This document shows, one piece after another, positions 33,185 through 35,095 of a stretch of DNA of 35,095 nt (positions within the stretch are counted from its first letter, which is position 1; the number at the start of each line of letters is the position of its first letter). The notes under the pieces were generated by a model that saw only the letters and a list, made by a program, of their open reading frames with translations, was not told the origin of the DNA and did not search any database. Source of the DNA: a virus. The DNA is taken from the IMG/VR virus record IMGVR_UViG_3300047320_000061, positions 1 to 35,095 of that record; one strand, 5' to 3'. The position numbers were made by a program, and so were the translations under genes.

Positions 33185-33213
33185 TTCATATTCAAGCATG
33201 CTTGTGTTTGCAA
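33185..33213 (-). promoter_or_regulatory. Promoter pR (cro operon)
   Basis: On the minus strand, TTGCAA (33213-33208), a 17-bp spacer and TATGAA (33190-33185) lie upstream of cro. The palindrome CAAGCATGCTTG (33193-33204) sits inside the spacer, so repressor binding would block polymerase. Confidence 0.75.
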
Positions 33214-33240
33214 GGCAAGCATGCTTGACAAGCTTCCTTG
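33193..33240. promoter_or_regulatory. OR-like operators for CI/Cro
   Basis: There are three CAAG-N4-CTTG sites: CAAGCATGCTTG at 33193-33204 and again at 33216-33227, both perfect palindromes, and the imperfect CAAGCTTCCTTG at 33229-33240. Their start-to-start spacing is 23 and 13 bp. They cover pR and the cI promoter region. Confidence 0.8.
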
Positions 33241-33252: not shown

Positions 33253-34104
33253 ATGAAAATTACTGATCGAATTACGAAGCTCGTCCTTGCGCGAAAGCCC
33301 GAGGTAGGCGCTCGCGGGTTCAAGCGTGACTTAGCGACCACTTGCGGGGTCAGCTATGAAGCTGTTCGCCAGTGGTTTGCTGGCGACACTGGCAACATTA
33401 AAAATGAGAACTTGAGCGCGATCGCCGAGGGCTACGACACGACTGTCGATTGGCTGCTTTCAGGAAAGGGTGAACCGCCCCGCCGCTCTGCTTCTGCCAA
33501 ACCTGCCGTCGAGCCGACCAAATCGGCAGCAGACCTGGTTCAGCAGATGCTGGCAAAACACGGAAAGAACCTCTCGGAGGACGCTCGTCAGAAGATCGCC
33601 GAAGCGGTTGAGGAGACGGCCACAGAGGTAAAGTCTGGCAACGTGCTCCCCGCCGACTTCTCTGGCCTTCGAGCGCGCCCGGATGAGGTGCTGATTCCTC
33701 AGTACGATATCCGGGCGGCAATGGGTCACGGTCAGGTGTCTCCGGAATACAACGAGACGATCCGTAACTTGATCGTTCGTGAGGATGTGCTGCGCGAGAA
33801 AGGCGTGACCTTTACGGCACTCAACGCCTTGGCGGTGATTACCGGCTGGGGACAAAGCATGGAAGGCACGATCAATGACAAGGATCCGGTGATCGTAGAC
33901 AGGGGTGTGAATGAGTTCGTCGGGGACGGAATCTACGTCGTTACCTGGCATAACCTGCTTTACATCAAACGTCTTCAGATTCTCGATGAAGATCACTTCT
34001 GGTTAATCTCGGACAACGAGAAGCACAAGGACCAGCAGGCGCGAATTGAGGATGTGACGATTCACGCAAAGGTGCTACTCATATGGAACGCTCGCAAGGC
34101 ATAA
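33253..34104 (+). CDS. cI: CI-type repressor with S24 peptidase domain
   Basis: The 283-aa prophage repressor. The N-terminal helix-turn-helix (about 20-45, GFKRDLATTCGVSYEAVRQW) shares the motif VSYEAVRQW with Cro (VTYEAVRQW), which fits a shared operator. A linker with charged helices follows. The C-terminal S24 domain has the nucleophile Ser202 (GWGQSMEGT) and Lys239 (LLYIKRLQ). The usual Ala-Gly bond cut during induction is replaced by Ala-Met-Gly (RAAMGHG, 155-160), so RecA-stimulated self-cleavage may be weak or use another bond. The gene overlaps a membrane-protein gene downstream by 22 bp. Confidence 0.94.
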   Translation: MKITDRITKLVLARKPEVGARGFKRDLATTCGVSYEAVRQWFAGDTGNIKNENLSAIAEGYDTTVDWLLSGKGEPPRRSASAKPAVEPTKSAADLVQQMLAKHGKNLSEDARQKIAEAVEETATEVKSGNVLPADFSGLRARPDEVLIPQYDIRAAMGHGQVSPEYNETIRNLIVREDVLREKGVTFTALNALAVITGWGQSMEGTINDKDPVIVDRGVNEFVGDGIYVVTWHNLLYIKRLQILDEDHFWLISDNEKHKDQQARIEDVTIHAKVLLIWNARKA

Positions 34105-34389: not shown

Positions 34390-34707
34390 TCAGAAAGGCG
34401 CCGGCGCCTCAGCTAACTCCACATCATCTACCTCGACCGGTCGATCATCGTCGCTGGCCGCTTCCCATGCCAGAGTGATCGACTCTTCCTCGTCGTTAAT
34501 GGTCATGTCGATACCGTCCGCATCCGACAAAACCGTCAGCAGCTCGTCCCACTCCCTATCCCCGTCAGTGTCCAGCCTGTGAATCGTCACTGTCCGATTC
34601 AGCTGCGACGTCGGGTAGTTAATCATTGATGAAACCCGCAACGACAACCGCTCCATTCCCGTCATTGGTTTCGGCCCTGCTTCCTTCTTCTTGTCCTGCT
34701 TTGCCAT
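34390..34707 (-). CDS. DUF1654-like protein under LexA and CI-type control
   Basis: A 105-aa protein starting at the ATG at 34707 behind AGGAGGTG; a longer frame runs back through the LexA box and operators. After a basic start (MAKQDKKKEAGPKPMTGMER), the core LSLRVSSMINYPTSQL and VTIHRLDTDGDREWDELLTV, DADGIDMTINDEEESITLAW looks like the Pseudomonas family DUF1654. The C-terminus is acidic (DDRPVEVDDVELAEAPAPF). Its promoter carries a LexA box and a CI-type operator. An SOS-induced antirepressor, in the manner of Tum of phage 186, is an attractive but unproved role. Confidence 0.82.
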   Translation of the reverse strand: MAKQDKKKEAGPKPMTGMERLSLRVSSMINYPTSQLNRTVTIHRLDTDGDREWDELLTVLSDADGIDMTINDEEESITLAWEAASDDDRPVEVDDVELAEAPAPF

Positions 34708-34749: not shown

Positions 34750-34778
34750 AAAATAAATACAAGCTTGCTTGCATTCAA
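34750..34778 (-). promoter_or_regulatory. Promoter of the DUF1654-like gene
   Basis: On the minus strand, TTGAAT (34778-34773), a 17-bp spacer and TATTTT (34755-34750). The operator CAAGCTTGCTTG (34760-34771) is inside the spacer, the same design as pR, and the LexA box lies at the start point. Confidence 0.65.
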
Positions 34779-34814
34779 ATCGCAAGCATGCTTTTATTAA
34801 TGCAAGCCGACTTG
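34760..34814. promoter_or_regulatory. OL-like operator cluster
   Basis: CAAGCTTGCTTG (34760-34771), CAAGCATGCTTT (34783-34794) and CAAGCCGACTTG (34803-34814) repeat the CAAG-N4-CTTG motif of the cro/cI region. Starts are 23 and 20 bp apart; the 23-bp step is shared with the first two sites near cro. A plus-strand promoter (TTGCAT, 17 bp, TTTTAT at 34769-34797) could be pL. Confidence 0.72.
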
Positions 34815-34859
34815 CAAGTGAAACACAAGCGAAGTTGGTCAGGGCCTCTTGAGACCCGC

Positions 34860-34872
34860 CGCTCTTTAACAA
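34860..34872 (+). promoter_or_regulatory. boxA-like antitermination element
   Basis: CGCTCTTTAACAA closely matches the boxA of bacterial rRNA leaders and phage nut sites, where NusB-S10 binds the RNA. It lies about 60 bp downstream of the possible pL on the plus strand. Confidence 0.6.
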
Positions 34873-34902
34873 CCAGCGCCATGAACGACTACCCGGCCAA
34901 AC

Positions 34903-35060
34903 CGGTTAGGTCACTCCCGGCACCATCGGTGGGAGGTCAGTAAACCGAAGGAAACAAACCGCTGCGCTAGTGAGGCGACCGGCGCCAGATGAAAGCCATT
35001 GAGGGGCTAAGTCTGGCGAGGTGATGACCGAACTGTGCGAATGACCCTGACGGGCGCAGT
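34903..35060 (+). other. Structured, non-coding leader of a presumed pL transcript
   Basis: No gene is visible from 34708 to the right edge on the plus strand. After boxA there are three stem-loops. The first pairs CGGTT/AACCG, with inner CTCCC/GGGAG, across 34903-34947. The second pairs CGCCAGA/TCTGGCG, with inner AGCC/GGCT, across 34983-35018. The third pairs ACTGTGC/GCGCAGT across 35032-35060. The regular succession suggests a functional RNA such as a nut or put-like antitermination region. Confidence 0.5.
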
Positions 35061-35095
35061 GAGTGATAAGACAGATTTCACTGGCTGGCCTTGGC

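Follow-up and report, generated by a model that had tools for sequence, protein, structure and literature searches.

The question raised by this locus is what occupies the end of a 35,095-base virus record (IMG/VR record IMGVR_UViG_3300047320_000061, a prophage fragment; "the window" means this whole stretch of DNA), at the place where a lambdoid phage would begin its left early transcript, and how such a transcript could be carried past stop signals. In lambda, antitermination needs the phage protein N. YA3, a lambdoid Pseudomonas phage, was reported to lack an N homologue although terminators follow the left early promoter, PL (PMC7326022), and put of phage HK022 makes it known that antitermination by RNA alone is possible (PMC9378689). 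We found that the window end holds a leader element of about 200 bases (34860-35062, plus strand), in which a boxA leads into a hairpin, then an H-type pseudoknot and finally a multi-branched domain that a long-range helix closes, and it is probably an antitermination leader.

The folded leader and its comparative support

Relatives of the leader were gathered by distant-mode searches and pattern scans, giving more than 140 loci, nearly all of them in Pseudomonas prophages or phages. The parts of the element and its immediate surroundings are as follows:

34842-34857, plus strand: possible short stem-loop directly upstream of boxA (GGG..CCC), of variable sequence
34860-34872, plus strand: boxA, CGCTCTTTAACAA (identity to the boxA of ribosomal RNA, rRNA, and conservation)
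34887-34912, plus strand: P1, a hairpin of GAC/GTC, UA/UA and CCGG/CCGG (alignment A1)
34914-34918 with 34931-34935, plus strand: P2, stem 1 of the pseudoknot, CUCCC/GGGAG (alignment)
34926-34930 with 34944-34948, plus strand: stem 2 of the H-type pseudoknot, loop UCGGU with ACCGA (swap test)
34959-35062, plus strand: multi-branched core domain (match of covariance model R1)
34960-34974 with 35047-35061, plus strand: P3, the closing helix, with mismatches (swap test, alignment)
34979-34982 with C35033, U35034, G35035 and G35037, plus strand: P4', formed by CCGG (coordinates derived from alignment)
34983-34989 with 35012-35018, plus strand: P4, outer stem of 7 base pairs, CGCCAGA/UCUGGCG (long-type alignment)
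34994-34997 with 35005-35008, plus strand: P4, inner hairpin stem of 4 base pairs, AGCC/GGCU (long-type alignment)
35020-35029, plus strand: P5, GGU/ACC (long-type relatives)
35074-35095, plus strand: 5' portion of another conserved hairpin, which precedes the first gene and is truncated here by the window edge (complete in the relative L083)

The first-pass annotation had described a boxA-like sequence followed by three consecutive stem-loops, one of them with a 7-base-pair outer and a 4-base-pair inner stem. P1, P2 and P4 do exist, and the two-part stem is P4, which is one arm of the multi-branched domain; a row of three hairpins was nevertheless too simple a picture of a leader that combines one hairpin with an H-type pseudoknot and a closed multi-branched domain. 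The pseudoknot, P3, P4', P5, the possible hairpin before boxA and the second hairpin from 35074 had been missed.

Compensatory changes are clearly present among the relatives. For the pseudoknot, 11 distinct complementary pairings occur at the same place (30 distinct loop/tail combinations), and the mean pairing score is 16.7 for a sequence's own strands, compared with 11.1 when strands are swapped between types and 10.8 when they are shuffled. In an alignment made blind to structure, all P2 cells (100%) are paired across 17 distinct sequences, and three of its five pairs have changes on both sides. The outer pair of P1 shows a GC to AU compensation in alignment A1, where its inner stem is built from other sequences in relatives (GCCC/GGGC, CCCGGC/GCTGGG). 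About 30 different complementary versions of the closing helix P3 exist, among them CGCTACGCC/GGCGTAGCG, CGCATTGC/GCAATGCG, GGCACCGC/GCGGTGCC and CTATACAC/GTGTATAG, with a score of 21.7 for own, 14.8 for crossed and 12.8 for shuffled strands, and four of its eight pairs are doubly compensated in the long-type alignment. Among long-type relatives, the same applies to three of six pairs in helix 4 and three of five in the inner helix 5, and the P5 stem has both-side changes in three of five pairs.

The 34-pair core was evaluated on alignment A2, which consists of 16 long-type sequences with the window left out. Here 96.9% of cells are paired versus 24-31% in slid controls, and 15 of the 34 pairs (55 cells) are changed on both sides; none of 500 shuffles matched the doubly changed pairs, the doubly changed cells or the covariation score. 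P4' is 100% paired in this alignment, the G-U variant being counted, and is flanked by near-invariant GCGA and GAAYGACC strands that lie between the core helices. Model R1, also built without the window, matches the window core with 45.8 bits (E = 2.1e-8) and additionally retrieves distant members (L127, L129, L137, L139 and L141). Because G-U exceeds A-C among mismatches in paired cells (27 to 6), the plus strand is the functional RNA.

Folding energy alone was not significant (z = -1.5 on the plus strand, -0.9 on the minus strand) and would not have proved a structure; the structure of the leader rests on comparative evidence. An all-pairs covariation test with a tree-based null failed to single out the helices, being dominated by register shifts and a small number of clades, and it was replaced by the swap tests, the counts on named structures and the independent model match. 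No covariance model of Rfam 15 (EAR, Pseudomon-1, c4 and others) matched at its gathering score, and a permissive Rfam search of the leader returned chance-level matches only. The leader is an RNA family new to Rfam, and searches of open-licence papers, which are not proof of absence, found no description of it.

Regarding boxA, all 12 bases of GCTCTTTAACAA are identical to the boxA located 167-182 nucleotides before 16S rRNA in two Pseudomonas genomes. The window contains no second GCTCTTTAACAA, even with two mismatches allowed; since 1.46 matches per window are expected by chance at that tolerance, the match alone is not beyond chance, and its significance comes from conservation. As the first scans required boxA, this conservation was checked for circularity on core-model matches in Pseudomonas genomes, for which boxA was not used and of which 22 were readable. 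A boxA with 0-1 mismatch is present in 17 of the 22 and with two mismatches in another two, while one locus has a more diverged boxA (three mismatches, 50 nucleotides before the core); the distance from boxA to the core is fixed at 48-56 or 112-114 nucleotides. The stem before boxA could be formed in 88% of 99 distinct upstream segments versus 60% of shuffles, which is suggestive.

Distribution and position of the leader

A 17-base pattern over boxA matched at least 120 IMG/VR stretches, more than 60 of which carry a related leader; diverse members were added by further scans, and the bacterial genomes picked up in another scan were mainly Pseudomonas. Chance pattern matches without homology were excluded by eye (L144, L158, L172, L192, L128, L206, L209 and L217). 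There are two main types of leader: type A, to which the window belongs, has an additional module behind boxA that type B lacks; type B has no pseudoknot, and the two modules occur separately. The class and genus samples were centred on a Pseudomonas genome reached through one locus. In a core-model search the leader was found in 24 of 199 Pseudomonas species genomes (about 12% of the sample), and under strict filters the class-level sample had it only in the centre genome and in none of the other 273 of 274 genomes. Among named phages, it is present in phi2, BUCT566, TC7, LESphi3, phiPSA1, PseuP_222 and others, mostly as an unannotated gap. Megablast with the window end as query gave no match to a named phage.

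In the window, the order is cI, a DUF1654 gene, operator-like repeats and then about 240 gene-free bases to the edge, and this gene-free end is the place of the PL leader. That no plus-strand gene lies between 34708 and the edge had already been annotated correctly. The same order of cI (plus strand), leader and left early operon is present in phi2, BUCT566, LESphi3 and phiPSA1, and wherever this was checked the leader precedes the early operon and lies to the left, or PL, side of cI. Each phage record has one core-model match. Pairs of leaders have a median of 62% of their 8-mers in common, compared with 1.5% for upstream and 1.3% for downstream flanks; conservation of the leader without conservation of either flank argues that it is a portable or mobile cis-acting cassette, apparently under strong structural selection and indifferent to the next gene.

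The continuation beyond the window can be read in L083, whose leader differs from that of the window by one base over the compared stretch and which runs on past the position of the window edge, through the second hairpin and a ribosome-binding site, into a gene. The hairpin is complete there (300-342, GATTTCACTGGCTGGCCTTGGCGACAGGGCCAGACGGGAAATC) and is followed by a Shine-Dalgarno sequence and ATG; it has other stem sequences with a constant design in L009, L040, L071 and L087. In many relatives such a hairpin immediately precedes the first gene's ribosome-binding site.

Proposed role in early transcription

We consider it probable, judging from sequence comparison, that the leader lets RNA polymerase pass stop signals without N, boxA loading Nus factors and the fold modifying the polymerase. 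The leader would be the untranslated start of the left early transcript, the first to be transcribed once the repressor is lifted. Its boxA, being that of host rRNA, would recruit NusB-S10 and other host Nus factors, and the hairpin, pseudoknot and multi-branched core would fold on emerging and stay tied to the polymerase. The fold would take the place of lambda's boxB and N and would bind or remodel the elongating polymerase, as N does in lambda or as put of HK022 does at the zinc-binding domain of the enzyme (PMC9378689). A polymerase modified in this way could resist Rho, and perhaps intrinsic terminators, over the whole early operon. Recruitment of Nus factors, contact with the polymerase, antitermination and the absence of a protein partner are all what we infer here. 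In support we count the covariation, the strand bias, the order of cI, leader and operon, the single copy, the identity of boxA to that of rRNA and its recurrence, the diversity of first genes, the conservation of the leader relative to its flanks, and terminator-like sites on the sense strand 1.3-2.3 kb downstream of the leader in L083, L046, L023 and L174.

Several observations weigh on the other side. The leader is present in a single copy, at PL, whereas both sides carry a site in lambda, HK022 and mEp021. The sense strand is not enriched for terminator-like sites (7 versus 19 antisense over 76 kb), and therefore it is more cautious to claim resistance to Rho. In two of the 22 core-model loci (L231 and L237) a recognisable boxA is absent and the upstream sequence is unrelated. 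A distant N-like protein may also be encoded elsewhere in the phage. As a separate observation on L231 and L237, the core domain is kept and boxA with the upstream part is swapped for GAACTGGTGAACAGACCGC... or similar, which suggests module exchange.

Among known systems, HK022 put is a structured leader RNA just downstream of PL in a lambdoid phage, likewise with no dedicated adjacent protein apparent; it is about 70 nucleotides long, has two stem-loops and occurs at PL and the right promoter PR (PMC9378689), whereas the window leader is about 200 nucleotides long, with boxA, pseudoknot and multi-branched core, and occurs once per phage. With the nut/N system of lambda it has in common a boxA and then RNA structure in the left early leader, but the small boxB hairpin and the N gene are lacking and the structure is much larger; a lambda-type second site on the PR side was not found (the window has a single boxA, and each phage record a single model match). 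The rRNA antitermination leader (boxA with NusA/B/E/G and SuhB) has the identical GCTCTTTAACAA and a possible hairpin just before boxA, but in the window boxA is followed by phage-specific structured RNA and phage early genes instead of rRNA. EAR (the epsC motif, RF01735) of Bacillales is a leader RNA for which antitermination activity has been reported and which is presumed to touch the elongation complex (PMC2864571). The window leader, for which a link to antitermination is proposed, differs from it in lacking an Rfam match and in its hosts and genes. By its size, architecture, lack of an N gene at the start of the left operon and lack of a second copy the leader stands outside nut and put. 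The claim that it acts in a like manner is not weakened by this, and we would class it as a phage early antitermination leader of a variant not known before.

The best surviving alternative, which we still regard as unlikely, is a long nut site, in which a phage antiterminator protein, different from N and encoded elsewhere in the phage, binds the folded RNA. BoxA with structure downstream is indeed the layout of nut, and most proteins of the early operons are of uncharacterised kind. However, the 135 first downstream genes form 68 unrelated clusters, none dominant, with no common first gene, and the same leader precedes unrelated operons. No N-like first gene was found among the 135, which are not basic (median lysine plus arginine 12%, at least 20% in only 3%), and no N family was found among the tested operon proteins of L083.

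It is decidedly improbable that an rRNA-type boxA only shields a long untranslated leader from Rho while the folds serve RNA stability or processing; the identity of the boxA and the ~276 untranslated nucleotides before the first start codon would suit this, but a pseudoknot and multi-branched core keeping their shape over dozens of sequence versions would be left unexplained. We give very little credence to a leader excised from the transcript and then working as a stable trans-acting RNA, which might, for instance, titrate Nus factors or target a host RNA or protein. Such a large, ornate and gene-independent RNA could be imagined in that role, but it is always linked in cis to the early operon, straight after the promoter region, where checked, its two modules occur separately, and neither a terminator nor a processing signal was identified downstream of the core. 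The second hairpin directly before the ribosome-binding site would speak for translational control specific to the first gene, or for a riboswitch acting on it; this reading is close to refuted, the first gene being unrelated between phages with the same leader.

Returning to antitermination by the RNA itself, the early suggestion of a structured leader larger than nut and possibly acting as an RNA-only antiterminator fits the PL position, the rRNA-type boxA, the lack of an adjacent N-like gene, the covariation and the variable downstream genes. The observation is confirmed and extended, and the functional interpretation, antitermination, is plausible and has been strengthened. For phages such as YA3, noted to lack an N homologue, a conserved RNA at the place expected of nut and N would be a concrete candidate for control of the early operon. 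If the proposal is true, a large natural RNA modifier of RNA polymerase exists in about 12% of sampled Pseudomonas species genomes, and it could serve as a model of the interplay between RNA structure and Nus factors; in any case, well-known phages (LESphi3, phi2, phiPSA1) carry an unannotated non-coding family. It is also quite possible, although we would not call it probable, that these leaders represent a new and widespread class of RNA-only processive antiterminators, where a pseudoknotted multi-branched RNA with a copied rRNA boxA replaces N in lambdoid Pseudomonas phages and several unrelated folds occupy that position behind the boxA in other phages.

Neighbouring features and other boxA leaders

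Profile searches of the window proteins show a lambdoid gene content, and the minus strand carries antirepressor, replication initiation, NinB, NinG, terminase, portal, head and tail genes. Features upstream of the leader are:

33253-34104, plus strand: CI-type repressor gene (phrog_4, E = 5.9e-44)
34390-34707, minus strand: DUF1654 gene between cI and the leader (PF07867, E = 6.1e-17)
34757-34830, plus strand: inferred left operator/promoter region upstream of the leader, with repeats matching the PR side

In LESphi3 a DUF1654 gene is annotated at the equivalent place. Positions 34757-34793 are 76% identical to 33190-33226 on the PR side, and 34803-34830 is a further, partial inverted match to the PR-side repeat (33190-33228). 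Repeats of the CAAGCATGCTTG type flank cI on both sides (33190-33228 and 34757-34830) and are probably CI/Cro operators of PR and PL. A consensus sigma-70 promoter for PL was looked for upstream of the leader and not found. Inside the leader, a 20-codon frame starting with ATG was rejected as a gene, as relatives have ATA or ATT starts or early TAG stops. Further along the early operon, BUCT566 and L083 have RecT/Bet-type genes. The first gene after the leader in LESphi3 (L219, 5365-5571) is annotated as a T3/T7-like RNA polymerase inhibitor and has no Pfam match.

In other phages, the same boxA (CGCTCTTTAACAACCAG) is followed by several leader families that seem unrelated to that of the window. 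One group comprises L020, L032, L063, L099, L100 and L106 (AGCGATAGAACAGGCCGATGG...), another L011, L028, L060 and L118 (GAGCTGGCCGATGCATAGCC...), and others are L067, L093, L102 and L108, and also L003 and L089. The core model gave no convincing score against the unrelated leader types tested, and the slot after boxA may be filled by several different RNA folds. In L172, L192 and L128, boxA leaders apparently not homologous to that of the window are followed by genes whose short basic protein products look N-like by eye.
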